In this document: piece after piece, positions 29,742-55,975 of the stretch
Numbering within the stretch: position 1 is the first letter of the stretch
Layout of the letters: the number at the start of each line of letters is the position of its first letter
Source: Opitutus sp. GAS368
GTDB lineage: Bacteria; Verrucomicrobiota; Verrucomicrobiia; Opitutales; Opitutaceae
DNA: 64,000 nucleotides
Direction of reading: 5' to 3'
Assembly (NCBI GenBank): GCA_945903465.1
Contig: CAMDOF010000005.1
Location: 1-64,000, forward strand
Program-made: the position numbers and the translations under genes
The notes under the pieces: generated by a model
Databases searched by the model: none
What the model was told of the DNA's origin: nothing
The model's input: the letters and a program-made list of their open reading frames with translations, nothing else

Positions 29742-31205
29742 CTATGATCCGAACCGAAACGAGTAGACCTTGGTCCGCGCGCCGCTGAGCACGACTTGTA
29801 CGTGGCGGCCCTGGAGCGACGTAAGATCGCGACGGCCCTGCCACGAGGTTACCGCGCCGGTGGCGTTGAGTTGCAGCGGATCGCAGTCGGCGGCGGAGAA
29901 CCCTGCGAGATCGCGGCCGCTGACCGGATCGCGTAACGCCACGCGCAGCTCGCCGAGCGCACCGGTGTCGAGGTTGAGGCGCAGCGTCGATCCATTGACC
30001 ATGACCGGCGCCGTCGTGGCCTGGCCGCCGGCGGGGGAGAAATCCAGCGACACAAAACCGTCGACGCGTTGCACGTGGCGAAAAATCACGCCGTCTGATT
30101 CCTTCTGGCGCCCGATGGTGTCGCCGTGCGTCGTGCGGAAGCCGGTGCCGAACTGCCAGATTTCGTCGCCGCGGACCACCATGCCCGCACCGATGTAGAC
30201 CATGTTCCCGCTCTCCGAACCGGCGAGACCGGGGCGAAGGTAGGGCTCGCGTGAATACCGCTGCCACGCGACCCCGTCGCGGCTCGCGATGAACTGCGAC
30301 TCGGTGCGGCCGTCGTTGCGCACCCTCGATTTGTGGTCGTGGCGATAGATCGAGGGGAAACCGACATACCACTCGGGGGCGAGCGGGTAGCGCTGGATGG
30401 CGTTTGTATAGACATCGGTGAGATCGGGGTCGCGCTCGTCGCAGGCGAACACCGTCGGGGCCTCGTCCACGATGAACGGGTCGCGCGTCGGTTCATTTTT
30501 CTGCGCTCCCGCACCCGAGGGTTTGATCGGCAGAGGGCGGTCGAGGCGGTCGGTCTCCAGTCGGACCAACCTTCGCCAATGCTCCTTCGGATCCTCGCGA
30601 TGCCAGCTCCGGAAAAACAAGACGTAACGGCCGAGTTGATCGTCCCACAGCGTGACGTTTTGCGAGTCGGCCTCGAATGGCAGCAGCGGCGCGGAATCGC
30701 GCCGCCACAAAAGCCCATCGGGCGACGTGAAGCGATAAATGCCTCCGCCCTTGAAGACCGTCGTCACATAGACGTAGCGCTCGGCCTCGGTGCGCGCGTG
30801 TGGGTCGCGGAAGACATTGCCTTCGATGCTGGAGACGCCGACGAGATTGTTGGCTTTGCTGCCTGCGCGTTCGGCCACGCCGAGGTTCGGTTTTTCCCAA
30901 TGCACGCCGTCGGTCGACTCGGCGTAGGCCAGATGGACAATCTTCGTGGATTCACGCGTGTTATACCACATCCGCAGTTTCCCGCCGTCGTCGATCACGG
31001 AGAGATAAAACGTGATCATGAAACTTTCCCACGGACGGTCGCGGCGGATCACGATTTCGCTGCGCTGCGGCGGATTGACGGTGAGAGTGGTGCCGGCCGA
31101 CGCGGTGACGAACGCGGGATCGAGGAACAGGTGGCGCGTCTGAGCGGGGAGGACGCTGGCGAGCGTGAGAGTGAGTGCGGCGCCGATCGCCGTGAAGGTA
31201 TGCAT
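29742..31205 (-). CDS. secreted five-bladed beta-propeller protein, glycoside-hydrolase-like (island family, member 1)
   Basis: This 487-residue protein has a signal peptide ending near VLPAQT. The propeller region (residues about 25-370) has blade motifs such as FYLSVIDDGGKLRMWYNTR, AYAESTDGVHWEKPNLGV and YRFTSPDGLLWRR, and the family core DVYTNAIQRYPLAPEWYVGF. A C-terminal beta-sandwich (LRLNLDTGALGELRV to KVYSFRFGS) is shared by all island members. The fold resembles GH32/GH43/GH117-type propellers, but I do not recognise a described GH family or its catalytic triad. It follows a TBDR gene after 97 bases on the same strand, so import and processing are probably coupled. Confidence 0.8.
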   Translation of the reverse strand: MHTFTAIGAALTLTLASVLPAQTRHLFLDPAFVTASAGTTLTVNPPQRSEIVIRRDRPWESFMITFYLSVIDDGGKLRMWYNTRESTKIVHLAYAESTDGVHWEKPNLGVAERAGSKANNLVGVSSIEGNVFRDPHARTEAERYVYVTTVFKGGGIYRFTSPDGLLWRRDSAPLLPFEADSQNVTLWDDQLGRYVLFFRSWHREDPKEHWRRLVRLETDRLDRPLPIKPSGAGAQKNEPTRDPFIVDEAPTVFACDERDPDLTDVYTNAIQRYPLAPEWYVGFPSIYRHDHKSRVRNDGRTESQFIASRDGVAWQRYSREPYLRPGLAGSESGNMVYIGAGMVVRGDEIWQFGTGFRTTHGDTIGRQKESDGVIFRHVQRVDGFVSLDFSPAGGQATTAPVMVNGSTLRLNLDTGALGELRVALRDPVSGRDLAGFSAADCDPLQLNATGAVTSWQGRRDLTSLQGRHVQVVLSGARTKVYSFRFGS

Positions 31206-31302
31206 AGGAGGTGACGCTGGGCGGCCGGCGGCAGGCGTAATTTCACTCAGCAGGTGAAAGGTGATTCTTCGTGGGTATTCAGAGGCATGTGACCAAGTGA
31301 TG

Positions 31303-34284
31303 TTAGAACCGGCCGCGGACGCCGAAGTTCAGGAGCATGCCTTTCTCCGAGTAGGTCTGGAGGTGATGCGGCACGCCGTAGTAGAGACGTTGCGGTTGGT
31401 TGAGCAGGTTGTAGGCGTCGGCGTAGAACTCGACCGACGGGCGCAGCGCGTAGCTTACGCTGAGCGTCGTGTTGCGGAACGCTTTTTTGTAGAGGAGGCG
31501 GGTGGCGTTGGTGGAATAGGTGAACAGATATTCGCTGGTGTGGTTTACCAGGAGGTTGGTGCGGAAGCGTCCAAACGAATGGCGCACGCCGGCATTCCAC
31601 GAGGTCGGCACAAATTCGGCGAGTGAACTGACCGCCTGCCGGACGCCGGTGCCGTAGTCGCCGGCCGTGTTGAGCCGGGTGAAATTTCCGAAGACGCCGA
31701 AGGCGCGCACCCACTTGGGACCGAAGGCGAGTTGCTGCTGGAAATTCAGTTCGAGACCACGGACCCGCGCCTTGCCGCCGTTGAGCGACGTGTTGATCGT
31801 GTAACCGGGGTACTGGCCGTTGAAACCGTTGTCGTTGCCGGTGCCGATCACGCCGTTGGTGCTGCTGAAAATGAAATTCTCCAGATCCTTTTGAAACACG
31901 CCAACCGAGATGAGACCGGTTTGCTTCATGTAGTATTCGAGACTGAAGTCCCCGTTGTCGGCGGTCTGCGGCACGAGGCCGGGGTTGCTCATCGTGACGG
32001 TCCGCGCCGTGTCGTTGGCGGACTCAGTCGGGATCAGGTTGTTGAAATTGGGACGGGCGATGCCGGTCGAGTAACTCGCCCGCGCGAGGAGCCGCGGTTG
32101 AATCGCGTAGGTGAGATGCAGGCTCGGCATCGTATTGGAATAGGCGCTGTCGCGTTGACGGCTGCTGTATTCGGTCGCCGCGCGCAGCACGGGGTTGGTG
32201 ATGGTCGCGAGCGTGCGGGCGATGACCCACGCCTTGGCGTCCAGGGCGGTATGTTCGATCCGGGCGCCGCCCAACACGGTGAGCGGGCCGGCGCGCAGGT
32301 GGCCAAGGAGGTAGCCGGCGGCGATGTCTTCGGAAACGCGATTGGTGCCGGCGAATTTCTGGCTTTCGCGAAAATAGACATCCTCGACCCAGCGGGCGGG
32401 CTGGTCCTTGACGCTCTGGCCCGCCGACCCGATGTGGACGAAGGGCAGGTTGCCCAGGCCGAAGGCACTGCTGCGCACGAGCGAAGGATCGGCGAACGGC
32501 GTGAGGGTGTCGTCGGCGTTGCCCACGACGCCATCCGGCCCGGCGTAGGTGTAGCGCGTGTTGTTCCAGGTGGTGCTGATGGAGTCCTGCCGCCGGTAGG
32601 TGACTCCAGATTTCAAATACGTCGACGCCCGGGTGGGCAGTTCGTAACGGGCGTCGAGCTTGGCGGCGTATACGTGCGCGGCGCGGCGACCGCCGGTCTG
32701 GGTCAGAACGCTGGTCCGGTAGTTGTTGAGATCGTAGACGTTCGGGCCGCCGGTCTGGGTGAACTTGGGAAATTCAAGGGAGTGTGAGGAGTCGAGCACC
32801 CAGCCCACGCCGGCGATGGTGCTGGTGAGACTGCCGCCGGCCCGGTTTTTCGTGTCCTGGCCGCTGGTCTGATCGAGCACGCCGATGGCGAGGTTAAAGT
32901 CGGTGTTGATCTGCAGCCGGTCGCGCTTGTACTCGCCGACGAACTGGATGGTGCGCTGCCGTTGAAGCTGACCGATGCTGTTCGCCAGCATCTGGAATTG
33001 GGAGGCGGCGATCGCCCGCGCCTCGGTGCGCGTATCGGTGTAGTTGGGCAGAATCGCGCCCGTGCCGGTCGGAGCGCCGGCCGAGTCGAGGGTCGCCACG
33101 GTCTGGGCGGTAAGCGCGCGGGACTCGTTGTATTGATGGCCGCCGAACGCGGAGTAGTCGTTGACCGTACCGCGCAGGCTGAGGCGGGTGTATTCGTTCC
33201 ACTGAAAGTCGACGCGTCCGCTGATGGTCTCGAGGTGGCGGTTGAAGAAGTAGTCGGCCGCCTGGTAACTCCACATGTAGGCCGGGCTGGCGTTGGTGGA
33301 CTGGTAGTCGCGGATGGTGCGGACGTAATCGCCGACGCTTTCGAAATAGGTGGCGTTGAGGCTGACGCCGAGGTTCCGCTCACCGCCGAGGATGCTGAAG
33401 ACGCCCTGGTAACCGACCGCCAGATCTGGGTGAATGGGACGCTCGCGGCGCATTGGATTGTGCGGGGCGAAGGGGGGCGCCCAGCGTGCGCCGAAGCGGT
33501 AGTTGAATTCCTGTCCGCGCGTCGTGTTCAGCGGCGACTTTGTCTTCATGTTGAGCGTGCCCCCGATGGACGACGCGTCCATGTCGGGCGTGATGCCCTT
33601 CACGACCTCGAATTCCTCGAATTGCGCGGTGACGTTGGTCGTGAAGCGCACCTGGCGGGTGGCGTTGCTGGCGACCGGGGCGAGAATTCCGCCGTCCATG
33701 GTGACCGAGTTGAGGCTCGAGGCGATGCCGCGCACCGCGACCGCGCTCACCTCGTTATCCTCGGTGACGGTGGCGGTCACGCCCGGCAGCCGCATGAAGA
33801 CCTCGCCGGGATTCTGGTTGGCCAGGCTGCCGAACGCATCGGTGGCCGCGGCGGAAATGGCGTTGGCCGCGTTGCGCTGGCGGGTGATGGCGGCGGCGTG
33901 TCCGCTCGCCTCGGCCGTGACCTGAAAGGTCTCGAGGCGGAGAATTTCGGAGCGCAATTGAAAGTCCGCGCGCGCCGTGCCGCCCGCGGTGGCCCGAACC
34001 GTGAGGCTTTCGGAGTCGAGGCCGGTATACGTGACGACGAGGTTGAGTTCGCCGGCGGGCAGGTTGCCGAGATCGAAACGGCCGAACTCGTCGGTGGCGG
34101 CGGTGCGGGCGAGCGACGCAATTTCGATCGCGGCACCCTTGAGGAAGGAGCCGGTGACGGCATTGCGCACCGTGCCGGTAACCCGGGCGGAGTCATCGGC
34201 GGTAGCGGACCGGGCGAAGATTGTGCAGAAGGTGGCGAAGGCGATTAGGAGATGACGCGGCGAAACGATGAGGTGATTTGGCAT
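31303..34284 (-). CDS. TonB-dependent receptor with carboxypeptidase-regulatory-like domain
   Basis: This 993-residue outer-membrane protein has a signal peptide (HLLIAFATFCTIFARSATA) and a regulatory beta-sandwich at about 33-110 (VTGTVRNAVTGSFLKGAAIE). The plug domain carries VFMRLPGVTATVTEDNEVSA and GISPDMDASSIGGTLN-like segments. The barrel ends LLNFGVRGRF with a terminal Phe. It is the first gene of a minus-strand operon with propeller member 1 and is divergent from propeller member 2. A TGGTC-N9-GACC site is centred 95 bases upstream of its start codon. Import of an oligosaccharide or glycoside is inferred. Confidence 0.92.
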   Translation of the reverse strand: MPNHLIVSPRHLLIAFATFCTIFARSATADDSARVTGTVRNAVTGSFLKGAAIEIASLARTAATDEFGRFDLGNLPAGELNLVVTYTGLDSESLTVRATAGGTARADFQLRSEILRLETFQVTAEASGHAAAITRQRNAANAISAAATDAFGSLANQNPGEVFMRLPGVTATVTEDNEVSAVAVRGIASSLNSVTMDGGILAPVASNATRQVRFTTNVTAQFEEFEVVKGITPDMDASSIGGTLNMKTKSPLNTTRGQEFNYRFGARWAPPFAPHNPMRRERPIHPDLAVGYQGVFSILGGERNLGVSLNATYFESVGDYVRTIRDYQSTNASPAYMWSYQAADYFFNRHLETISGRVDFQWNEYTRLSLRGTVNDYSAFGGHQYNESRALTAQTVATLDSAGAPTGTGAILPNYTDTRTEARAIAASQFQMLANSIGQLQRQRTIQFVGEYKRDRLQINTDFNLAIGVLDQTSGQDTKNRAGGSLTSTIAGVGWVLDSSHSLEFPKFTQTGGPNVYDLNNYRTSVLTQTGGRRAAHVYAAKLDARYELPTRASTYLKSGVTYRRQDSISTTWNNTRYTYAGPDGVVGNADDTLTPFADPSLVRSSAFGLGNLPFVHIGSAGQSVKDQPARWVEDVYFRESQKFAGTNRVSEDIAAGYLLGHLRAGPLTVLGGARIEHTALDAKAWVIARTLATITNPVLRAATEYSSRQRDSAYSNTMPSLHLTYAIQPRLLARASYSTGIARPNFNNLIPTESANDTARTVTMSNPGLVPQTADNGDFSLEYYMKQTGLISVGVFQKDLENFIFSSTNGVIGTGNDNGFNGQYPGYTINTSLNGGKARVRGLELNFQQQLAFGPKWVRAFGVFGNFTRLNTAGDYGTGVRQAVSSLAEFVPTSWNAGVRHSFGRFRTNLLVNHTSEYLFTYSTNATRLLYKKAFRNTTLSVSYALRPSVEFYADAYNLLNQPQRLYYGVPHHLQTYSEKGMLLNFGVRGRF

Positions 34285-34369
34285 GGCAGGTTCGATGAGG
34301 TGGAGTTCCGCTGAACGGTTGCGCCGCGATAGCTAAGAGTGGAAACACGGGCCTGAAATCCCCGAATTG

Positions 34370-34388
34370 TGGTCCTGTGAGCAGACCG
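34370..34388. promoter_or_regulatory. predicted operator site 1, TGGTC-N9-GACC
   Basis: TGGTCCTGTGAGCAGACCG lies in the divergent region between the TBDR gene (-) and the propeller gene (+). It is one of five sites with the same half-sites and the same 9-base spacer. Confidence 0.7.
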
Positions 34389-34619
34389 GCCGGAAATGGC
34401 CTTGTTTTCTGGTTTTGTCCTTCATCCTAGGCAGTGAGATCCGTTTTGCGTCCGTGGGACGATGGCGTGTGCTGCTCGATTCATCGGAACTGTTCCGGGG
34501 GGGGGCCGCGTGCGACGTCACCGGTGCGAGGAGAAAACAGGTTGAACCGATTCAATTGTCGTGAAATCCCCTTGTGCGCCGCTGGTGGGAATATCGCTAG
34601 CGATGAAACTCCGGCTCCT

Positions 34620-36182
34620 GTGAACCCAAACCACTCCGACTGCTTCCGAACTCTTTTTCAACTGGTGCTGCTCCTTGCGGTGCCCTGCGGCGGCGCGCAG
34701 ACGAAGATTATCCTACCCGATCTTCCGTGCGGCGCGGTAGAGGGCGAGGCCGTTTTGTTCGCCTTTGATTCGACGGCGTTTCCCTTTCAGTCGCGCGTGC
34801 AAACCCGGCTCATCCCGGGCCGCTTTCACTCGGTGGTGCTGCCGCACGGGCCGCCCGGATCGCCCGACGAATTCCTGCGCTTCTATGGCACGGTCATTCG
34901 CGTCGAGGGCATTTTTCACATGTGGTATTTCGGCAACCACGGTCCCGAGCCGGCGACGATCGGCTACGGCCAGGGCAGCCACCCGGGAAAGGCGTTTTGC
35001 TATGCGCGCAGCACGGATGGCATTCATTGGGAAAAACCAAATTTGGGCTTGGTCGAATTCAACGGATCGAAGGCGAACAATCTGGTGCTGTTCCCCGAAC
35101 CCGCGCCGCGGCCGGCCGCCGCCGTGCTTTTCGATCCCGAGGATCCGAGACCGGAACGAAGGTTCAAGCTCGCCTACGAGGCGGACAACAAGGGCACCGC
35201 GCGACTCTGCGTGGCTTTCAGTCCCGACGGACTGCGGTGGACATTGTCGCCACTCAATCCGGTGGGCCCTTTTTTTGAGATGGCCGGCATCGCCAAAGTG
35301 AGGGGGAAATATTATATCAACGGTCAGGACGCGACCCGCGCGCACCAGGCTTTTGCCTCCCGCCAGCTGGCGACGTTTGTCTCCGCGGATTTTGAGCATT
35401 GGTCGCCGTGCGCGGCGGTCGGGCTGGATCGTTCCAGCGATCTCAACGGGCCTTCGATCGAACACGAATGGAACATCCGGGAGGAGGTTCACCTCGGCGC
35501 GGCGTTGTGGAATCGGGGCAGCGTTCTCCTGGGGATTTACGGCCAGTGGCATGGCAACCCGGTGGGCGATCGGCGATACACCTCAATTGATTTGGGGCTG
35601 ACCGTCACCCACGACGCGATCCATCACCGGGAGCCGATCCCGGGCTTCAAGCTCATCCCGGCTCGTGAACAGCCGGGGAGCCCCGCCGCGGACATGCCGG
35701 CGCTGATGCAGGGCCAGGGATTTGAGAACGTCGGGGACAAGACGTATTACTGGTATTCGCTGTGGAAGGGAAACGAAGGGACGGGCGTGAGGCTGGTGAC
35801 GTGGGATCGCGATCGGCTCGGGATGCTCAAGCCGATCTATCCGTCAGGGGTGAGTGGGAATCCAACGGCTGTCAACTATTGCCAGGCGGTGAGCTGTGCG
35901 GTGAAGGTGTCGGCCGGCGGCAAGGCGAAAATGTTCGTGAACGCGTCCGGTCTGGGCGCTCACTCCCGTTTGCGGATCGCGCTGCTCGATGCCGCGTTTC
36001 AGCCGATTCCGGGTTACCACGCAATCATCGCCGCGGACGGGTTGCGGTCGCCGGTGAATTGGGAAAACCGCGAACTGTTCGGGGCGAGCCTGGGCGAATG
36101 CTATGTGCAGGTCGGGTTTGAAGGCGTGCGACCGGAGGACGCGAATTTCCACGCGCTCTACCTTGAACCGGTGGCGCCGTAA
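34620..36182 (+). CDS. secreted beta-propeller protein (island family, member 2, divergent)
   Basis: I place the start at the GTG at 34620. It yields a signal peptide (CFRTLFQLVLLLAVPCGGAQ), whereas the 62 residues before it in the track ORF are not protein-like. The 520-residue protein has propeller motifs close to member 1 (GIFHMWYFGNHG, CYARSTDGIHWEKPNLGLVE, NGSKANNLVLF) and an equivalent C-terminal sandwich (SRLRIALLDAAFQPIPGYHA). It lacks the DVYTNAIQ block, so it is a distinct branch. Other features include RHSIEHEWNIREEVHLGAALW-like acidic residues that could be catalytic. It is divergent from the TBDR operon and shares operator site 1 with it. Confidence 0.78.
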   Translation: MNPNHSDCFRTLFQLVLLLAVPCGGAQTKIILPDLPCGAVEGEAVLFAFDSTAFPFQSRVQTRLIPGRFHSVVLPHGPPGSPDEFLRFYGTVIRVEGIFHMWYFGNHGPEPATIGYGQGSHPGKAFCYARSTDGIHWEKPNLGLVEFNGSKANNLVLFPEPAPRPAAAVLFDPEDPRPERRFKLAYEADNKGTARLCVAFSPDGLRWTLSPLNPVGPFFEMAGIAKVRGKYYINGQDATRAHQAFASRQLATFVSADFEHWSPCAAVGLDRSSDLNGPSIEHEWNIREEVHLGAALWNRGSVLLGIYGQWHGNPVGDRRYTSIDLGLTVTHDAIHHREPIPGFKLIPAREQPGSPAADMPALMQGQGFENVGDKTYYWYSLWKGNEGTGVRLVTWDRDRLGMLKPIYPSGVSGNPTAVNYCQAVSCAVKVSAGGKAKMFVNASGLGAHSRLRIALLDAAFQPIPGYHAIIAADGLRSPVNWENRELFGASLGECYVQVGFEGVRPEDANFHALYLEPVAP

Positions 36183-36300
36183 GTTCGGGCGACGCTGGGT
36201 TACCCGGTTCGCATTGCTTGTTACGCTGCGAGGAGCCCCAAGGGAAGCTCCAGAGCGCATCTCAGTTTCTGGCCGTTACCCGGTGCGACGGGGCGCGGAC

Positions 36301-36387
36301 GTGGCGCCGCCGGCGTTCGTCCGCACGTTGCAGACGAGCCTTCGCCTACGTCTACACTCCGCTTTGCAATACCCGGGTGACGCGTCC
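36301..36387 (+). repeat. dispersed palindromic (REP-like) repeat, copy 2
   Basis: This element is the inverted counterpart of 29481-29569 and contains GACGAGCCTTCGCCTACGTC with the same hairpin core. Sequence at 36250-36280 (GAGCGCATCTCAG) resembles the other end of copy 1 in the opposite sense, so the whole element may be a longer imperfect palindrome. Its right edge meets the stop codon of the truncated propeller gene. Confidence 0.65.
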
Positions 36388-36388
36388 T

Positions 36389-37728
36389 TCAGGCCACGGT
36401 TCGATTTTCGAGTTCCCTGCCATTCGACGGGTCGAGGAGCGCCACCCGCAACTCGCCGAGCGCGCCGGTGTCGAGATTCAGGCGCAGTGTCGATCCGTTG
36501 ACGACGACCGGCGCCGTGGGGGCCCGGCCACCGGCAGAGGAGAAATCGAGCGACACAAAACCGTCGACGCGTTGCACGTGACGGAAAATAGTGCCGTCGC
36601 CCCGTTGCTCGCGGCCGGGGACATCGCCATGGGTGGTACGGTAGCCGGTGCCGTATTGCCAGATCTCATCACCCCGCACCACGAGGCCGGCCGCGATGCA
36701 GAGCATGCTGCCGCTCTCCGAACCGGCGAGGCCCGGCTTCAGGTACGGCTCGCGGTTGTAGCGCTCCCACTTCTTCCCGTCGCGGCAGCCGACGAACTGG
36801 ATCTCGGTCCAGCCGTCGCTGTGGTTGTGCGGCGAGTTGAGCAGATGGCGGAAGAAGGCCGGAAAGCCGACATACCAGCTCGGATCGAGTGGATAGGGCT
36901 GGATGGCATTCGTATAAATGTCCGTGTCCGGCGGATCCTGTTGATCGCAGACCAGAGCGTCGGGCAATTCGTCAAACACGAACGGATCGCGAGTCGTGTC
37001 TGTTGGCCGCGACTGGTCGCGTGGGCGCGAAGGAACGATCCCGCTGGAATGGTCGAGGCGCTCGGCTCGAAGCGGACAACTTTGCGGTTCGCACCAACGG
37101 GCTGTTTCGCCAGGTTCCAGCCGCGGAGGTAGGCGACGTATTTGCCGAGGCGCGAGTCCCAGAACGTGATTTTCTGCGAGTCGGCCTCGAACGGCAACAG
37201 CGGTGCTTTGTCGCGCTTCCACGTGTAGCCTTCGGGGGAGGTGAAGCGGAAGATGCCGCCACCCTTCCCGACGGAGCTGACATACACGTATCGCTCCTGT
37301 GGATTCGCCGCATGCTCGTCGCGGAAAACCGTGCCTTCGAGATTGCGGACGCCGAGGAGGTTGTGGGCGCGGCTGCCGTGATAATCGACCACGCCGAGAT
37401 CGGGCTTCACCCAGTTCACCCCGTCAGCCGACTCTGCGTAGGCGAGGCTGCCCTTCTTTTCCTTGTCCCGATAGACATACCACATCCGGATCTTCCCGCC
37501 GTCATCGATCACGGAAAGGTAGAAAGTGATCATGAATTGTTCCCATGGCTTGTCCGCGCGAATGACGATCTCGGAGGATTTGGGCGGGTTGACCACGAGC
37601 GCCGCACACTGCGCCTCGCGCACGAACTCGTGATCGAGGAACCGGTGGCGCGTCGGGCCCGCCGCGGGCGCGCCCGCCAACGAACCGGCGAATGCAAGCC
37701 AGCCCAAGGCGATGAGCAGTGGTTTCAT
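36389..37728 (-). pseudogene. beta-propeller family pseudogene (island family, member 3)
   Basis: The gene starts at MKPLLIALGWLAFAGSLAG (37728) and follows member 1 closely through KVVRFEPSAS. Then the frame changes near 37000-37060, and the family core continues in another frame (DPFVFDELPDALVCDQQ, DIYTNAIQPYPLDPSWYVGF, FRHVQRVDGFVSLDF). The second lesion is a C-terminal truncation. The sequence ends LLDPSNGRELENRTVA, whereas paralogues go on for about 50 residues to YSFRF. The truncation point coincides with the edge of the REP-like repeat at 36301-36387. It is last in the operon of TBDR 41561-44665, 31 bases after member 4. Confidence 0.85.
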
Positions 37729-37759
37729 CGAGGGGATCGTAAATTCGATGGCTCGTTGT

Positions 37760-39202
37760 TTAATTTTCGAACCGGAAGGAGAAGAGCTTGGTGCGATGGG
37801 AACGAAATTCGATCGCCACGTCCCGGCCCTGCAAGGCGGACAAGTCAGCGCCACTTGCCCAAGTGACCACCGCACCGGTGGCGTTGATCTCAAGCCGTCG
37901 ACAGTCTTCCACGCCGAACCCAGGCAGCGGTCTTCCATCGACGCCGATCAGTCCCACCTGCATTCCTCCGAGCGCGCCCGTGTCGAGGTTGATCAGAAGC
38001 CGCCGACTGGAAACCTTCACCGGAACGGTCCGAGCCGAACCGACCACGTTGCCGGTGTCCAGCGATACGAACCCGTCCACCCGTTGGACGAAACGGTAGA
38101 TCGCTCCGTCGGTCTGCTGGGCGCGGCCGGGCTTGTCGCCGTGCGTCGTGCGGTAACGGGTGCCGTACTGCCAGACCTCGTCGCCCCGCACGACCAGGCC
38201 CGTCCCCATGAAGATCATGTTGCCGCTCTGTGGCCCCGGCAGTCCAGGGCCGGCGTAGACCTCGCGACCGTAACGGTGCCAGGTGAGCCCGTCCCGACTG
38301 CCGACGAACTGCACCTCCGTCCGGCCGTCGTTAAAGTGCGGCGAGTTGCCGTTGAAGTGCCGGTAAAAGGCCGGAAACCCGACATACCAATGTGGATCGA
38401 GTGGATACGGCTGGATCGAGTTGGTGTACACGTCGGTATCCGACGGATCCTGCTCGTCGCATTTGAGCATCACCGGTAGCTCATCCATCCTCACTCCCGG
38501 CTGCCGTTTGGCGTCACTCCCAAGTTGGCCGGCGAGGCTGTCCGTCTCCAGCAACACGACCTTCCGGCGCAGGGTGTGCTCGTGCGGGCCTTTGGGATCC
38601 TTGCCGCGCGTGTACACCCGGTATTTCCCGCGCCGTTCGTCCCAGAAGGGCACCGTCTGGGTGTCCGGCTGGAACCGAACGAGCGGCCCGGCCTGCCGCT
38701 TCCAGCGCAGACCTTCGGGCGAGGTGAAGCGAAACACCCCGCCGCTCCCCGTGGAGAGATAGACGTATTGCTCGTCTCCCGCGCCTCGGGGATCGCGATA
38801 AACCGCACCTTCCAGCGAATGAAGGCCGACGAGATTGTTCGCCGTGCTGCCCTCGTACGCAACGACTCCCAGCTCCGGCTTGTTCCAGTTCAGTCCGTCA
38901 CCGGATTCCGCATACGCCACGTTCGCCCGGTTCTGGGTGTCGCGGCAGATGTACCACATCCGCAGCCGTCCGCCCTCATCTCGCACGGTCGTGTAGAACG
39001 AGATCATGAGCTGCTCCCACGGCCGGTCGGACACCATCACGCGGTCTTCGCGGAGGGGCGGATTCACCCGCAGCGTTGTTCCCTGCGCCTCACTCACGAA
39101 GGCGGGATCGAGGAACAGGTGGCGGTTTGGGCCCGCGTCAGGCGCGCCCGGCAGCGAACCGGTGAACGCCAGCAAGCCCAGGGCGATGAACGGGGGTTTC
39201 AT
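37760..39202 (-). CDS. secreted beta-propeller protein (island family, member 4)
   Basis: The start is set at MKPPFIALGLLAFTGSLPG (39202), a clean signal peptide nearly identical in form to that of member 3. The 480-residue protein is complete. It has blade motifs FYTTVRDEGGRLRMWYICRD and AYAESGDGLNWNKPELGVV, the core DVYTNSIQPYPLDPHWYVGF, the repeat block YRFVQRVDGFVSLD and the C-terminal sandwich from LLINLDTGALGGMQV to KLFSFRFEN. It lies between the three-domain propeller gene (hairpin in between) and pseudogene member 3, all on the minus strand. The likeness to member 3 indicates tandem duplication. Activity on a glycan is inferred from fold and context. Confidence 0.8.
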   Translation of the reverse strand: MKPPFIALGLLAFTGSLPGAPDAGPNRHLFLDPAFVSEAQGTTLRVNPPLREDRVMVSDRPWEQLMISFYTTVRDEGGRLRMWYICRDTQNRANVAYAESGDGLNWNKPELGVVAYEGSTANNLVGLHSLEGAVYRDPRGAGDEQYVYLSTGSGGVFRFTSPEGLRWKRQAGPLVRFQPDTQTVPFWDERRGKYRVYTRGKDPKGPHEHTLRRKVVLLETDSLAGQLGSDAKRQPGVRMDELPVMLKCDEQDPSDTDVYTNSIQPYPLDPHWYVGFPAFYRHFNGNSPHFNDGRTEVQFVGSRDGLTWHRYGREVYAGPGLPGPQSGNMIFMGTGLVVRGDEVWQYGTRYRTTHGDKPGRAQQTDGAIYRFVQRVDGFVSLDTGNVVGSARTVPVKVSSRRLLINLDTGALGGMQVGLIGVDGRPLPGFGVEDCRRLEINATGAVVTWASGADLSALQGRDVAIEFRSHRTKLFSFRFEN

Positions 39203-47873: not shown

Positions 47874-47885
47874 GGCGCGACGATG

Positions 47886-48011
47886 CAGTCGAGAGCTAAG
47901 AGCGAAGAGCTGAAAGCCCGCCCTTCAGAGCAGAAACGCCCGCCGCCTGCGTTGAGAACGAAGGTCACGGTTCGGTTTTGCCCTCGGCTCTCAGCTCTTC
48001 GCTCTCGACTG
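47886..48011. repeat. large inverted repeat between convergent genes
   Basis: The left arm (CAGTCGAGAG...GCGAAGAGCTGAAAGCC, 47886-47918) and the right arm (47986-48011) are complementary over about 25 bases, apart from a 6-base insertion. The element sits between the TBDR (+) and AraC (-) stop codons and could stop transcription from both sides. Its right arm with flank recurs in shortened form at 54501-54528. Confidence 0.75.
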
Positions 48012-48038
48012 AATTTATTTTGCTGAGGCGCCCGCTTA

Positions 48039-49026: not shown

Positions 49027-49105
49027 TCACGGCGATCCTTTTCTGCGGTGCGCGGGCCGGACCAGACCGGCCCGCTCCAGCAGCAGGATGCAGGGATTCA
49101 TTCAT
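49027..49105 (-). pseudogene. deletion scar of a xylose-isomerase-like gene
   Basis: The scar begins MNESLHPA, matching the start MNESLLPG of the isomerase gene at 53488-54480. After about eight codons another frame reads LLERAGLVRPAHRRKGSP-stop, matching the end LMDRAGLVRPARLGKVTG of the same gene. So the ends are kept and about 910 bases between them are gone. The position downstream of a Gfo/Idh gene is the same as in the complete operon. The two parts are out of frame (79 bases in total). Short CTG-containing sequences at both sides of the junction could have mediated the deletion. Confidence 0.75.
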
Positions 49106-49139
49106 GAAGGGAGATGGGGCTGTTCCGATCGGGGTAGGC

Positions 49140-50576
49140 TTAGCCACGCAGCGCGTCGATCTCCCAGCCCTTGCGGTACTGGCGTCGCACGAGGGCGGTT
49201 GCGGCCGGGTCGTCGAAACGCAGTCGCGCGTCGTCCCACACCAGCCGTCGCCCGGGAACACGTTGCGCGATCGTCCCGAGCATGACGATCTCCGTCAGCG
49301 GGCCTGCGACTTCGAACGATGAGGTGGCCGACCGGCCGGCGACGATGGCGTTCGGCCATTCGCGGTAATGATCAAGTTTGTCGGCGGCCAGGTCCGCAAA
49401 CATCTGTTTCAGCGGCCCGACGGTGTAGTCGCGGTATTTCGCCTCCGGATACAGGCGGGGCGGTGTGCCCGGCGCGGCGTGCATGATGCCCTTGTCACCG
49501 ATGAAGAGGGAACCGCTGCTGGGAATTTTGAATCCCTCCGGCAGCTTGCTCTTGTCCACCGGCTGTTCCTTTTTCAGGCCGTCCGACCACGTGTAGCGGA
49601 AGCCCTCGTGCGTGTAGCGGGTCGCCGGAAACTCGTAGACGACGGTGCTCGCGTCCGGATATACGAGCTCGTCCACGTTGCTGACCTCGGCGCGGAGCGC
49701 AGTCGGCGCCCCGAGTTCGAGCGCCCACACGACCACGTCCATGATGTGGCAGCCCATGTCGCCCATCGAGCCGGTACCGTATTCCTTCCAGGCCCGCCAA
49801 TTGAAGTTGTGGTAGAGATGCGTCTTGTAGGGTCGCGGGGCACCGGCGCCGATCCACTCGTGCCAATGGATGTCCTTTGGCACCGGATCCTCGCCGACCG
49901 CCAGCTCCTTGATGCCCGGAAGCCAGACCGGCTTTGTGCCGAGGAACGAGTACGCCTCGCGGACTTTTCCGATGACACCGTTCCGGATTACCTGGACGGC
50001 GCAGCGATAGCCCGTGCTGGAGTGATACTGGTTGCCCATGTGCGTGACGACGCCTTTCGCCCGGGCGAACTCGCGCATGACGCGGGCCTCATGCACGGTC
50101 TGGGTCATGGGCTTTTGCACGAACACGTGCTTCCCCATCGCCATGGCCGTGAGCGCGACCGTGGCGTGCATGTGGTCGGGAATGGAAACGGTGACCGCGT
50201 CGATGTCCTTCTGCTCAAGCATCCGGCGAAAATCCGTGTAGAGCTTCGCCTTGGGGAACATCCGGGCCGCGGCACCGATACCGAGGGAGCGCGCGAGCTG
50301 CCCCGGAGCAAGGTTTGGCGGTTGCGAACCGCCGTCGCGGTGATCGATATCGCAGAGGGCGACGATGTCGTGGTATGCCCCCTCGCCACTCACGCCGCGC
50401 AGGTCGTCCCAGCCTTTGCCGGCGGCACCGATGCACGCGATCCGGACCCGGCGGACGGACGGGTTGGCACGCGCCCGCCCCGGCAACGCGCCGAGCAGAC
50501 CGAGCGACACACCGCCGGCGGCGACGGACTTCGCGAATTTCCGGCGCGTCATTGGGATTGGTCTGGGTGTATTCAT
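49140..50576 (-). CDS. Tat-exported Gfo/Idh/MocA-family oxidoreductase (copy 1)
   Basis: This 478-residue protein has a twin-arginine signal (MTRRKFAKSVAAGGVSLGLL, cleavage near RARA) and should act in the periplasm with a tightly bound cofactor. The Rossmann motif is RIACIGAAGKGWDDL. The usual EKP motif is VQKPMTQTVHEARV, the QKP variant seen in exported members. GNQYHSSTGYR and GDMGCHIMDVVVWAL carry further conserved residues. Exported relatives oxidise or isomerise sugar hydroxyls, for example to 3-keto-glycosides. It has the same length as copy 2 at 54539 and is very similar throughout. It follows operator site 3 and precedes the isomerase scar and the AraC gene. Confidence 0.9.
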   Translation of the reverse strand: MNTPRPIPMTRRKFAKSVAAGGVSLGLLGALPGRARANPSVRRVRIACIGAAGKGWDDLRGVSGEGAYHDIVALCDIDHRDGGSQPPNLAPGQLARSLGIGAAARMFPKAKLYTDFRRMLEQKDIDAVTVSIPDHMHATVALTAMAMGKHVFVQKPMTQTVHEARVMREFARAKGVVTHMGNQYHSSTGYRCAVQVIRNGVIGKVREAYSFLGTKPVWLPGIKELAVGEDPVPKDIHWHEWIGAGAPRPYKTHLYHNFNWRAWKEYGTGSMGDMGCHIMDVVVWALELGAPTALRAEVSNVDELVYPDASTVVYEFPATRYTHEGFRYTWSDGLKKEQPVDKSKLPEGFKIPSSGSLFIGDKGIMHAAPGTPPRLYPEAKYRDYTVGPLKQMFADLAADKLDHYREWPNAIVAGRSATSSFEVAGPLTEIVMLGTIAQRVPGRRLVWDDARLRFDDPAATALVRRQYRKGWEIDALRG

Positions 50577-50751: not shown

Positions 50752-52251
50752 TCATTCGAAGCGGAACGAATAAAGCTTCGTCCGCCGCATCCGGATTTCG
50801 AGGCAGACGCTCCGCCCCTTCAGCGTCGCCAGGTTGCCCTGCGGCCAGGCGACAAGCGCGCCGATCGTGTTTTTCTGCAGCGGCGGACAATCTTCGACGG
50901 AGAACCCGGGGAGAGCCCGGCCGGCTTCATCGAGCAGGCCGATGCGAATCTCGCCCAACGCCCCGGTATCGACATTGAGCAGCAGCCGGTCGCCGGTCAC
51001 CCGCACCGGGACAGTGCGGGCGGTGCCCTCGACGTTCGCCGCGGTCAGCGAGACGAAACCATCCACGCGCTGCACGAAACGAACGATGACGCCGTCCTGT
51101 TTCAGTTCCCGCGCCGGCTCGTCGCCGTGCTGGCTTTCGAACTCGTTCGCATACTGCCAAATCTCGTCGCCCTTCACCACCATCCCGCTCGTCATATAGA
51201 TCATCCTCCGATCCTCGGGCGACGCCACCATCGGACTGGCGTAGGGCATACGGTCGTAACGATGCCAGTGAATGCCGTTACGACTGCCGGCAAATTCCGT
51301 CCCCACCGGCCCGTGCTTCTGGCCCTGGTAGTTCGCCGTGGGGGAACCATCCTTGCGGCGGAAGAACGCCGGAAACGCGACGTACCACGAAGGATCCAAA
51401 GGGTACGGCTGCGCCACCATGGTGTAGACATCGGTGCGGGACGGATCCCGCCCATCGCACTCAAAGACGGTGGGCACCTCGTCCAAGGCGTATCGCAGCG
51501 AATCGGGCTTCCCCGACCCCCGGCCGCGACCGCTCGGCTCGATTCCCGTCGGCTCCTTAAGACTGCTCACCTCGAGCCGTTTGACAGTGCGGTACTGCGG
51601 CGACCAGCCGCGAAAATAGAGCACGTACTTGCCAATCCGCTGATCCCAGAACGCGACGTTCTGGGTATCGGAGGGAAACTTCAGGAAACCGGGCTCATCC
51701 GCCTGCCAGCGAAGCCCGTCCGGCGAGGTGAACCGGCCCACACCGCCGTAGGGAAAATTGAGGTTCGAGACCGCGACATAACGTTCCGCCGGCGATGCAG
51801 CGTTGGGATCGATGAACGGCGTAAACCCGGCGCTTCCTCCTTTCAACAGGTTGGTCTCCTTGCTGCCCTCGTACTCCACGAGCCCAAGCGAGGGCTTGGT
51901 GAAATGGATGCCGTCCCGCGATTCGGCGTAAGCGAGCCCGGCGGAAGGCCGCCCCTGCTTCGCGCGCGCGTGATACCAGAGCCGCACCCGATCACCCTCT
52001 TGCAGGACCGAGGAATAAAAACCGAGCATCAGGCTCTCCCAAGGACGATCCGGTCGGAGCACGACCTCGTGCCGCTGCGCGGGGTTGATCGTGATCTGGA
52101 GATCTTGGAGCGACGACAGCAGGGCCGGCTCAAGAAACAAATAACGCCTGGCCGCGAACGTCGCCGTCGCCGCTGGCACGGTGACCGTTAACAACAAGGC
52201 GGCAACGCCCAGGGTGGAACGAGCGAGGGTTTGAAGCAGGGCGGGGCTCAT
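50752..52251 (-). CDS. secreted beta-propeller protein (island family, member 6)
   Basis: This 499-residue protein has a signal peptide (LGVAALLLTVTVPAATATFA). It contains propeller motifs GFYSSVLQEGDRVRLWYHAR, AYAESRDGIHFTKPSLGLVE and RFTSPDGLRWQADEPG, and the family core DVYTMVAQPYPLDPSWYVAF. YDRMPYASPMVASPEDRRM is a loop that differs from the paralogues. The C-terminal sandwich runs from LLLNVDTGALGEIRI to KLYSFRFE. It is the last gene of the operon Gfo/Idh copy 2, isomerase, thioredoxin protein, propeller, following the thioredoxin gene after 43 bases. This places the family next to periplasmic sugar-oxidising enzymes and supports a role on glycosides. Confidence 0.82.
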   Translation of the reverse strand: MSPALLQTLARSTLGVAALLLTVTVPAATATFAARRYLFLEPALLSSLQDLQITINPAQRHEVVLRPDRPWESLMLGFYSSVLQEGDRVRLWYHARAKQGRPSAGLAYAESRDGIHFTKPSLGLVEYEGSKETNLLKGGSAGFTPFIDPNAASPAERYVAVSNLNFPYGGVGRFTSPDGLRWQADEPGFLKFPSDTQNVAFWDQRIGKYVLYFRGWSPQYRTVKRLEVSSLKEPTGIEPSGRGRGSGKPDSLRYALDEVPTVFECDGRDPSRTDVYTMVAQPYPLDPSWYVAFPAFFRRKDGSPTANYQGQKHGPVGTEFAGSRNGIHWHRYDRMPYASPMVASPEDRRMIYMTSGMVVKGDEIWQYANEFESQHGDEPARELKQDGVIVRFVQRVDGFVSLTAANVEGTARTVPVRVTGDRLLLNVDTGALGEIRIGLLDEAGRALPGFSVEDCPPLQKNTIGALVAWPQGNLATLKGRSVCLEIRMRRTKLYSFRFE

Positions 52252-52294: not shown

Positions 52295-53491
52295 TCATCC
52301 GCGTTCTCCGGGTGAAAAATACGGCCCCAGCGTGTCCACGAGGCGGTTGATCAGTTCCCGTTCATCGAGCTCGCCCGTGTGCCGCCAGAGGATTTTTCCG
52401 TCCGGGCCCATCAGGACCGTGTGGGGCACTCCGCCCGGCCAGTCTGGGTCGAGCGCCTGCATGAGGGGCTGCCAGTCGCTGTCGGCATAAACGTAATGGT
52501 TCGTCCGCCGGCCTTCTTTCTTGAGCGCGGAATGCGTCCGCGCCGGAACTCCTGCGTGCTGCCCCTCAAGGAACTCCTGCACGCGCGCAGCCTGTTTGGG
52601 ATGATCAACACTCACCGTGATCAGATCGAAAGGCCGCATGCTGAACCGTCGCATCGCCTGCACGAGCGTGGGGAATTCTTCGACGCACGGCCCGCACCAG
52701 GTTGCCCAAACATTGATCAGGCGGAAACGGCCCGCTGAATTCGTCGTGAGCGCCTTGATCGAGGCGAGGTCGGCGGTCTCGACCATCACCGGCTCGGCAT
52801 CCCAGCGGGCCACCCGCTTGGCGACGGATTCCTTCTTTGCGCGCCATTTGGTCGAGCAGCCGTGGGGCTTGGTCGTTTCAACCGGGACCGGACGGCCGGC
52901 CAGCATCGCCTCGACCGCGGCGCGCGCATCCTGCGTCTTGATACTCGCCGGATCGGCATAGGGTGAATTGTCGAACTGGCCTTTGTAGCGGAGCCGACGT
53001 TCCGCGTCGAAGAGGAACACGTGCGGCGTGGTGAGGCAGCCGTACGCCATCGCGGTCGTCTGCGTCTCGCCGTCCCACAGGTAAGGGAACGGCAGCTGCA
53101 CCTCTACCGCGTAGCGCTTCATGTCCTCGAATCCGTCGTCGTAGCGAGAGTAGCCAAGTTCATCGACGCTCAGACCCTCGGGATGATTGGGGTTGATGCC
53201 CACGACGGCCACGCCGCGTGCCGCCATCTCTTGGGCGAACTTCACCAATCTCGGCGCGGTGGCGTTGGAGTCCGGACAGTGATTGGAAATGAATGCCACC
53301 ATCAGCACGGGCGCGGAGCGATAGTCGGTCAGCGCATGCGTGCGGCCGTCGATGCCGGGCAGGCGGAAATCCGGCGCCGCGTCGCCGATCGCGAGCGTGG
53401 CGCTCTCCAGAGCACCCGGGTTGGACTGCGCGATCGCGGGAGCCGTCGCCAGCCATCCTCCGATCGCAAAAAGGAGGAAGCGCACGGTCAT
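52295..53491 (-). CDS. secreted protein with two thioredoxin-like domains
   Basis: The start is at MTVRFLLFAIGGWLATAPAIA (53491), a signal peptide. Of the 398 residues, about 32-185 form an AhpC/Redoxin-like domain with a single-Cys site (ISNHCPDSNATA, Cys71) and a trans region TTPHVFLFD. Residues about 235-390 form a TlpA-like domain with an intact CxxC (VWATWCGPCVEEF, Cys256 and Cys259) and cis-Pro GGVPHTVL. Such proteins pass electrons to exported proteins or remove peroxide. Here it may keep exported enzymes reduced, or handle peroxide from sugar oxidation. Its ATG overlaps the isomerase stop by 4 bases (ATGA), so the two are translationally coupled. The 171 extra track residues are antisense shadow. 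Confidence 0.85.
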   Translation of the reverse strand: MTVRFLLFAIGGWLATAPAIAQSNPGALESATLAIGDAAPDFRLPGIDGRTHALTDYRSAPVLMVAFISNHCPDSNATAPRLVKFAQEMAARGVAVVGINPNHPEGLSVDELGYSRYDDGFEDMKRYAVEVQLPFPYLWDGETQTTAMAYGCLTTPHVFLFDAERRLRYKGQFDNSPYADPASIKTQDARAAVEAMLAGRPVPVETTKPHGCSTKWRAKKESVAKRVARWDAEPVMVETADLASIKALTTNSAGRFRLINVWATWCGPCVEEFPTLVQAMRRFSMRPFDLITVSVDHPKQAARVQEFLEGQHAGVPARTHSALKKEGRRTNHYVYADSDWQPLMQALDPDWPGGVPHTVLMGPDGKILWRHTGELDERELINRLVDTLGPYFSPGERG

Positions 53492-54480
53492 CCGGTGACT
53501 TTCCCGAGGCGCGCAGGCCGCACCAGCCCAGCGCGGTCCATCAGCGGCGCGAGGCGCTCGTAGCAGAGTTTCGCCGTGGGCACGGGCTGGTATCCGGGCT
53601 TCCGATGCACGTGCGCGCTCACCTCCACATTTACAAAGCCCGAGTATTTCAGTTCCTTGAGCAACCGGAAGTAGGCGAGATAGTCCGTCTTGCCGTCGCC
53701 GGGCAGCAGGTAGTCGTGCTTCTCCGACGTGCCTTGGGAATCCTTCACCACAATCAGTGGGGAGACGTTGATGAGCTGGCGCAGGCTTTCCTCCAGCGGG
53801 AAGCCCTCGACGTAAAAATGACTGTAGTCGAAGACGATCCGGATGCGCGGGCTGCCAACGGCGTTGAGCAGCCAGAGGACGCGTTCGACGCTCTGCACCG
53901 CGTCGCCCGCGTGCGGCTTGAAGGTGAGCGTGGTGTTGCCGTTCTCCAGGATCGGCACCCAGGTTCGGAGTTCGTCGACCATCGCATTTTTGGCGGTTTC
54001 CCACTCCGCCTTTTTCCGCCCTAGGATGGTGTCGAGATACGGCGGACGCGACGGCATCAGCTCGTTGCCCAGCTCGACGGCGAGCTTCAGCCGGTCGAGG
54101 TTCTTGGCCTTGGCGTCCGCCGTGCCGCGCAGCGGAATACTCTCAATAACGGAAGGGAGAGCCAGGCCGGAATCCTCGATCTGCCGCCGCAGTGTCCGGC
54201 GGTTCTCCGGCGACAGCTTGGCGGGATCGGCCGGCCAGCCTGGCATGAGGCAGAGCTGCAGGCCGTCGTAGCCGGTCTCCTTGATGACCCGGAGCGCGTC
54301 GGGCGTCGTGAGGTCCTTCATCCCGTAGGTGCCAATCGTCAGTCCGGCGGTCGGCGAAGATTTGGCCGCGGCCGCCAGCAGCGGTGCGGAGACGAACGCC
54401 CCGAGACTGGCGCCGACGATGACACGGGAGAAGTCGCGCCGGCTCATCGGAGCGGCGCCAGGAAGCAGGGATTCGTTCAT
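53488..54480 (-). CDS. Tat-exported sugar phosphate isomerase/epimerase-like protein (xylose isomerase-like TIM barrel)
   Basis: The start is at MNESLLPGAAPMSRRDFSRV (54480). SRRDFSRVIVGASLGAF is a twin-arginine signal, so the 330-residue TIM-barrel protein is probably periplasmic. Barrel motifs include GYDGLQLCLMPG, RIVFDYSHFYVEG, LIVVKDSQG and FVNVEVSAHVH, the last three carrying candidate metal ligands (Asp, His, Asp, Glu). Exported members near Gfo/Idh genes act on oxidised sugars, for example in breaking 3-keto-glycosides. The gene follows Gfo/Idh copy 2 after 58 bases and overlaps the thioredoxin gene by ATGA. A deletion scar of a second copy exists at 49027-49105. Confidence 0.88.
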   Translation of the reverse strand: MNESLLPGAAPMSRRDFSRVIVGASLGAFVSAPLLAAAAKSSPTAGLTIGTYGMKDLTTPDALRVIKETGYDGLQLCLMPGWPADPAKLSPENRRTLRRQIEDSGLALPSVIESIPLRGTADAKAKNLDRLKLAVELGNELMPSRPPYLDTILGRKKAEWETAKNAMVDELRTWVPILENGNTTLTFKPHAGDAVQSVERVLWLLNAVGSPRIRIVFDYSHFYVEGFPLEESLRQLINVSPLIVVKDSQGTSEKHDYLLPGDGKTDYLAYFRLLKELKYSGFVNVEVSAHVHRKPGYQPVPTAKLCYERLAPLMDRAGLVRPARLGKVTG

Positions 54481-54500
54481 GTGAAATTGAGATTCGCGTC

Positions 54501-54528
54501 TTGGTTTTGCTCTGGGCTCTCGACTGCA
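54501..54528. repeat. shortened copy of the 47972-48012 repeat arm
   Basis: TTGGTTTTGCTCTGGGCTCT-CGACTGCA resembles GGTTTTGCCCTCGGCTCT...CTCTCGACTGAA at 47974-48012, with about 14 internal bases missing. It lies in the 58-base gap between the isomerase and Gfo/Idh copy 2. Confidence 0.5.
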
Positions 54529-54538
54529 TTGGTCCGAC

Positions 54539-55975
54539 CTACGCCCGCAGCGCGTCAATCTCCCAGCCCTTGCGATACTGGCGGCGCACGAGGGCGGTCG
54601 CGGCCGGGTCGTCGAAGCGCAGGTTGGCCGCGTCCCACGCCAGGTGCCGTCCGGGGACGCGCTGGGCGATCGTGCCGAGCATGACAATCTCGGTGAGCGG
54701 GCCGGCGACATCGAACGAGGAGGTGGCCTGGCGGCCGGCGAGGATCGCGTTCGGCCACTCCAGATAATGGTCGAGTTTCTCGGCGGCCAGGTCCGCGAAC
54801 ATCTGCTTGAGCGGCCCGACCGTATAGTCGCGGAATTTCTCCTGCGGATACAGGCGGGGCGGCGAGCCGGGCGAGGCGTGCAGGATACCTTCGTCGCCGA
54901 TGAAGAGGGAGCCGCCGCCGGGGACTTTGAAGCCCTCCGGCAGCTTGCTCGCGTCGACCGGCTGCTCCTTCTTCAAACCATCCGACCAGGTGTAACGGAA
55001 CCCCGCGTGTGTGTAGCGGGTCGCGGGAAAATCGTAGACCACCGTGCTTGCCTCCGGATACACGAGTTCGTCCATGTTGCTGATCTCAGCGCGGAGCGCG
55101 GTCGGCGCCCCGAGTTCGAGCGCCCAGACGACGACGTCCATGACGTGGCAGCCCATGTCGCCCATCGACCCGGTCCCGAATTCCTTCCAGGCCCGCCAAT
55201 TGAAATTGTGGTAGAGGTGCGTCTTGTACGGACGCGGCTGCGCGACGCCCAACCAATGGTTCCAATGGATGTCCTTCGGCACGGGATCCTCGCCGACGGC
55301 CAGCTCCTTGATGCGCGGAAGCCAGACCGGCTTCGTGCTGAGGAACGAGTACGCCTCGCGGACTTTGCCGATGACGCCGCTCCGGATTGCATTCACCGCG
55401 CAGCGATATCCCGTGCTGGAATGATACTGGTTGCCCATGTGCGTGACGACGCCCTGCTTTCGGGCGAATTCCCGCATGACACGCGCCTCGTGTACGGTCT
55501 GCGTCAGCGGTTTCTGCACGAACACGTGTTTCCCCATCGCCATGGCCGTGAGCGCCACGGTGGCGTGCATGTGGTCGGGAATGGAAATGGTGACGGCCTC
55601 GATGTCCTTCTGCTCGAGCATCCGGCGAAAATCCGAGTAGAGCTTCGCCTTGGGGAACATCCGGGCGGCGGCGCCGATGCCGAGGGAGCGTGCGGTCTGC
55701 ACCGGGGCAAGGTTGGACGGCTGCGGTCCGCCGTCACGGTGGTCGATGTCGCAGAGCGCCACGACGTCGTGCAACCGGCCTTCGCCGCTCACGCCGCGCA
55801 AGTCGTCCCAGCCCTTGCCGGCGGCGCCGACGCAGGCGATCCGAAGGCGCCGGCCGGAAGGATTGGCGCGCGCGCGCCGCGGAAGCGCGCCGAGGAGGCC
55901 AAGCCACGCGCCGCCGGCGACGACAGTCCGGCCGAATTCGCGGCGGGTCATTGAGGTTGTCTTGGTCGTATTCAT
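54539..55975 (-). CDS. Tat-exported Gfo/Idh/MocA-family oxidoreductase (copy 2)
   Basis: The start is at MNTTKTTSMTRREFGRTVV (55975), a twin-arginine signal with cleavage near RARA. The 478-residue product is a close duplicate of copy 1 at 49140, with the same Rossmann motif RIACVGAAGKGWDDL, the QKP motif VQKPLTQTVHEARV, GNQYHSSTGYR and the same C-terminus RRQYRKGWEIDAL. Differences cluster in surface segments such as IHWNHWLGVAQPRP against IHWHEWIGAGAPRP, so substrate range may differ slightly. It is the first gene of the operon Gfo/Idh, isomerase, thioredoxin protein, propeller, with operator site 4 centred 124 bases upstream. Periplasmic oxidation of a sugar hydroxyl is inferred. Confidence 0.92.
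   Translation of the reverse strand: MNTTKTTSMTRREFGRTVVAGGAWLGLLGALPRRARANPSGRRLRIACVGAAGKGWDDLRGVSGEGRLHDVVALCDIDHRDGGPQPSNLAPVQTARSLGIGAAARMFPKAKLYSDFRRMLEQKDIEAVTISIPDHMHATVALTAMAMGKHVFVQKPLTQTVHEARVMREFARKQGVVTHMGNQYHSSTGYRCAVNAIRSGVIGKVREAYSFLSTKPVWLPRIKELAVGEDPVPKDIHWNHWLGVAQPRPYKTHLYHNFNWRAWKEFGTGSMGDMGCHVMDVVVWALELGAPTALRAEISNMDELVYPEASTVVYDFPATRYTHAGFRYTWSDGLKKEQPVDASKLPEGFKVPGGGSLFIGDEGILHASPGSPPRLYPQEKFRDYTVGPLKQMFADLAAEKLDHYLEWPNAILAGRQATSSFDVAGPLTEIVMLGTIAQRVPGRHLAWDAANLRFDDPAATALVRRQYRKGWEIDALRA

Follow-up and report, generated by a model that had tools for sequence, protein, structure and literature searches.

Genes at the locus

The window, the whole stretch of DNA analyzed here, spans 64,000 nucleotides and belongs to a genome (G000) of 8.2 Mb in 343 contigs. 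Two paralogous Gfo/Idh genes lie on its minus strand. An intact isomerase-like gene follows copy 2, and a 79-base remnant of such a gene (the scar) follows copy 1. The features are as follows.

49027..49105, minus strand: isomerase deletion remnant (scar) behind Gfo/Idh copy 1, with both isomerase ends joined
49038..49084, minus strand: 3' piece of the scar, isomerase nt ~936-982, 36/47 identical, ungapped
49084..49105, minus strand: 5' piece of the scar, isomerase nt 1-22, 20/22 identical
49140..50576, minus strand: Gfo/Idh copy 1, intact, 478 aa; its leader is of the twin-arginine type
50752..52251, minus strand: 499-aa protein with a signal-like start and no Pfam match
52295..53491, minus strand: TlpA/AhpC-type thioredoxin-like protein (tlpA), a relative of which also lies behind the pair in genome G242
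53488..54480, minus strand: intact isomerase-like gene that partners copy 2; its product has a xylose isomerase-like TIM barrel (PF01261)
53543..53550, minus strand: direct repeat GCGCCGCT, copy 2, in the intact isomerase (nt 931-938), at the position matching the 3' edge of the deletion
54451..54458, minus strand: direct repeat GCGCCGCT, copy 1, in the intact isomerase (nt 23-30), at the position matching the 5' edge of the deletion
54539..55975, minus strand: Gfo/Idh copy 2, 478 aa, 86% identical to copy 1 in amino acids

Several repeated sequences were seen around these genes. The spacer between copy 2 and its isomerase (54481-54538) holds a shortened form of an inverted repeat of the CTCAACTCTCAACTCTCAGCTCTC type, and a similar inverted repeat lies behind a TonB-receptor gene (47880-48015). 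In the related genome G025, the corresponding spacer (L044:13046-13206) carries the repeat at a length of ~160 bases, with related copies at L044:17355-17484. It looks like a dispersed repeat element.

The scar joins the two ends of the isomerase gene

The scar begins 34 bases past the stop codon of Gfo/Idh copy 1 and reads, on the minus strand of 49027-49105, ATGAATGAATCCCTGCATCCTGCTGCTGGAGCGGGCCGGTCTGGTCCGG...CCGTGA. Its opening, ATGAATGAATCCCTGCATCCTG, matches the start of the isomerase gene (54480-53488) at 20 of 22 positions, and the stretch that follows, GCTGCTGGAGCGGGCCGGTCTGGTCCGGCCCGCGCACCGCAGAAAAG, matches the isomerase end at 36 of 47. Frame 0 translates as MNESLHPAAGAG..., with MNESL.P encoded by the 5' piece, and frame +1 as ...LLERAGLVRPAHRRKGSP*. 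The 3' piece is frame-shifted relative to the 5' piece; in frame +1 it reads LLERAGLVRPAHRRK, compared with LMDRAGLVRPARLGK in the intact isomerase. An earlier note had described these 79 bases as the first codons of the isomerase followed by its last codons in another frame, and the alignment agrees with it in coordinates and residues alike.

The likeness at both ends was far above background. In 2000 dinucleotide-preserving shuffles no score equalled that of either end; the nucleotide alignment proposed in the earlier note thus proved better than random for each. Both ends against the isomerase were also the top non-self matches among 6394 79-base stretches from both strands of the window. 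The 3' piece also aligned with the isomerase of genome G008 (37/45 identical over 15 codons). Seven of its 11 mismatches to the intact isomerase fall at third codon positions (15 aligned codons), a bias that, over so short a stretch, hints that the lost gene may have remained functional for a while once the copies had diverged. The 10 bases behind the scar, TGACCGTGCG, were considered by eye as a possible leftover of the start of tlpA.

The same scar and intact pairs occur in related genomes

A DNA search with the scar returned matches in the window's own genome and in G025 only, the rest being at chance level (21-47 bases). G025 (CANJIU01, 'MAG: Opitutae bacterium isolate RH-23may17-1042') belongs to the same genus as the window genome and is syntenic with the window locus over 12.9 kb at 94.5% nucleotide identity. 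Its scar (L044:7591-7669) follows the copy-1 orthologue there, has the identical junction and differs by 3 substitutions and 0 indels in 79 bases. The shared scar excludes an assembly error and indicates that the deletion predates the split of the two species.

Intact Gfo/Idh-isomerase pairs were found at G025:C72 (L045), G008:C34 (L046) and G242:C134 (L052, 'Opitutaceae bacterium UBA6669'). In all three, Gfo/Idh comes first and the isomerase follows ~15-32 bases behind. In a blastn comparison with G008, a single alignment (window 49079-50493) takes in Gfo/Idh copy 1 sequence, the spacer behind it and the beginning of the isomerase without interruption. The remnant thus holds both ends of its parent gene, above chance and in the correct order and orientation, at the place of its intact homologues, directly behind Gfo/Idh. 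The scar sits where the isomerase lies in four other Gfo/Idh-isomerase pairs, among them that of copy 2, as the earlier note had observed. Since intact pairs of the same layout exist at three further loci, deletion is the clear reading, rather than chance or insertion, and the sequence comparison strongly supports a former isomerase gene behind Gfo/Idh copy 1 that was deleted.

The related strains, in which the earlier note had suggested looking for an intact second isomerase, yielded the same scar instead: G025 is the sole other genome with the copy-1 locus in the genus, family and order sets, and none of the 27 genomes of the genus, 252 of the family and 373 of the order showed an intact isomerase at that position behind Gfo/Idh copy 1. 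The pre-deletion state is therefore reconstructed from paralogues. Close relatives of the isomerase were confined to four genomes (G000, G025, G008 and G242), with none beyond these in the 252 family and 373 order genomes. In the G242 pair (L052:1851-3265), Gfo/Idh is apparently frame-shifted near its end, as is the tlpA gene behind it, which may be an error of the MAG assembly.

Size and probable route of the deletion

The missing part corresponds to isomerase nt 23-936, that is 914 bp, with a junction ambiguity of 3 bases (CTG); the previous estimate of about 910 bases was correct. The frame changes within the scar because 914 mod 3 is 2.

The intact isomerase carries the 8-base direct repeat GCGCCGCT at both edges of the segment that corresponds to the deletion. 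Random breakpoint pairs within the isomerase gene shared an 8-mer equally near in 0.4% of trials. The repeat is known from the copy-2 isomerase only and is absent from the iso3 and G008 isomerases. Judging from this paralogue, slippage or illegitimate recombination between the short direct repeats would be the most likely route. The junction shows CTG as microhomology. Simple slippage would keep a single copy of the repeat, and the scar would then be 6 bases longer than observed; on this route either 6 further bases would have been lost or the break would have occurred inside the repeat.

We propose that Gfo/Idh copy 1 once had an isomerase gene of ~330 codons behind it, as a partner in the same operon, that the pair existed in paralogous copies, and that a frame-shifting internal deletion of 914 bp struck one of them before the split from G025. 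We regard this overall explanation as very probable. The scar is real, and it is an ordinary deletion pseudogene following duplication of a gene pair; the earlier note had read it correctly in essence.

Origin of the duplicated pair

Gfo/Idh and isomerase are kept together in five other pairs (copy 2 in two genomes, G025:C72, G008 and G242), which argues that the isomerase was copied with Gfo/Idh; copying as a pair is well supported by these gene arrangements. How copies 1 and 2 came to lie near each other is less clear. Copies 1 and 2 are 84.8% identical in DNA, and each is 82-84% identical to copy 3 (G025:C72); overall the three stand at similar distances from one another (82-85% nt). Trees from nucleotides, amino acids and codon positions 1+2 conflicted with low support, and the order of duplication was not recovered.

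Copy 2 itself has a mixed history. Between the window genome and G025 (L044:13206-14642) it is 87% identical with a dS of 0.46, compared with 0.09-0.14 for its neighbours in the block. It is a mosaic, its middle being copy 1-like in the window genome and copy 3-like in G025, with both ends tracking the species, and exchange between paralogues (gene conversion) is the likely cause on this pattern. Synteny with G025 stops just upstream of copy 2, and the neighbourhood upstream lies on another G025 contig (C16). Owing to this mosaicism and the synteny break, Gfo/Idh identity cannot date the duplication.

It is thus a serious alternative, to which we give somewhat less than even chances, that the copy-1 pair arrived separately, by transfer or by recombination between loci, and lost its isomerase later; the deletion is unaffected by this choice. 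The equal distances among the three copies, the unsupported tree order and the synteny break would fit such an arrival, as would the differing neighbours: copy 1 follows the 499-aa gene, a relative of which (50% identical) directly precedes the pair in G008, and tlpA comes after copy 2 as in G242. However, a tandem copy of a gfo-iso-tlpA-499aa unit with loss of its tail would give the same order, and the 5' end of the scar is nearest to the copy-2 isomerase (20/22, compared with 15/22 for G008 and 11/22 for iso3). The claim that the pair was duplicated as a unit is supported by the other intact pairs. Its local part, an operon duplication in which one of copies 1 and 2 gave rise to the other, is no more than plausible.

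Two expansions were seen alongside. Relatives of the 499-aa protein seem to be repeated, both in the window (29747-39030 and 50752-52251) and near the G008 pair (three copies, L046). About 60-70 Gfo/Idh-type matches occur in G000, and such matches are also numerous in most genomes of its genus, a large family expansion.

Fate of Gfo/Idh copy 1 and of the remnant

Gfo/Idh copy 1 has a dN/dS of 0.13 between the window genome and G025 and thus remains under purifying selection. Being intact and so constrained, it is still in use. The isomerase that partners copy 2 evolves faster, with a dN/dS of 0.30 against G025, compared with 0.13-0.21 for the other genes of the cluster. Probably this isomerase serves copy 1 as well, in trans; the export leaders predicted on both proteins would favour this. 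A division of labour instead of neutral decay, in which loss of the isomerase left the strongly selected copy 1 to use another downstream enzyme or substrate, is conceivable, but we think it unlikely.

That the remnant has become a small gene (the 37-codon ORF MNESLHPAAGAG...) or a functional regulatory leader is very improbable. Its 37-codon frame is open in both genomes and no indel has entered the 79 bases, but the differences between the two scars change amino acids freely, and their divergence (3/79) is similar to that of the flanks. A promoter scan at the scar found no site, and the terminator-like site there is weak and lies on the opposite strand. Annotators are cautioned that no small gene should be called at the scar. 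Finally, although short GC-rich matches of ~40 bits are found genome-wide, a GC-rich spacer that mimics both isomerase ends by chance is ruled out, for practical purposes, by the shuffles, the G025 scar and the alignments to relatives, the two matches being independent, adjacent and at the expected place.

On the deletion reading, the locus offers a clean example of a lopsided duplicated enzyme pair, in which one partner was deleted before a species split and the other remained under selection. It is a known kind of event, and general understanding is unchanged by it.

Predicted function and comparison with known systems

The intact isomerase passes the PF01261 (AP_endonuc_2) profile with 80.2 bits against a gathering score of 31.1 (residues 64-296). 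Among NCBIfam models, BT_2158_fam (NF058561) is matched by the window's Gfo/Idh proteins at E 1e-83, and they also match the solved structures 8tdf/8tdh. Their score of 281 bits (residues 11-470) falls under the equivalog cut-off of 750, which by sequence makes them distant BT_2158 relatives and not members. BT2158 of Bacteroides is described as a periplasmic glycoside 3-dehydrogenase required for disaccharide use (PMC11300592). This type of enzyme is the curated family nearest to the window Gfo/Idh, but by the cut-off it is not the same enzyme.

In Agrobacterium, isomerase/epimerase-like proteins beside a Gfo oxidoreductase act on 3-keto-glycosides; the oxidation-elimination operon there comprises GlycDH, the Gfo oxidoreductase and two sugar phosphate isomerase/epimerase-like proteins, AtOGE and AtHYD (PMC10628242). 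The window resembles this operon in that a Gfo oxidoreductase adjoins an isomerase/epimerase-like protein, and differs from it in GlycDH, which was not seen in the window. A literature search on 3-ketoglycosidase clusters gave no results. Going by family relationship, the pair probably oxidizes a glycoside at C3 and then processes the keto sugar; that this predicted oxidation is periplasmic is, by analogy, a fair guess.

As a remnant, the scar resembles the pseudogenes left by short-repeat-mediated internal deletion of duplicated genes during bacterial genome decay, which likewise keep both ends, lack the middle, and show a frameshift and a repeat or microhomology at the edge. It differs from them in that the repeat present in the paralogue is not retained whole at its junction; otherwise it is of the same kind.
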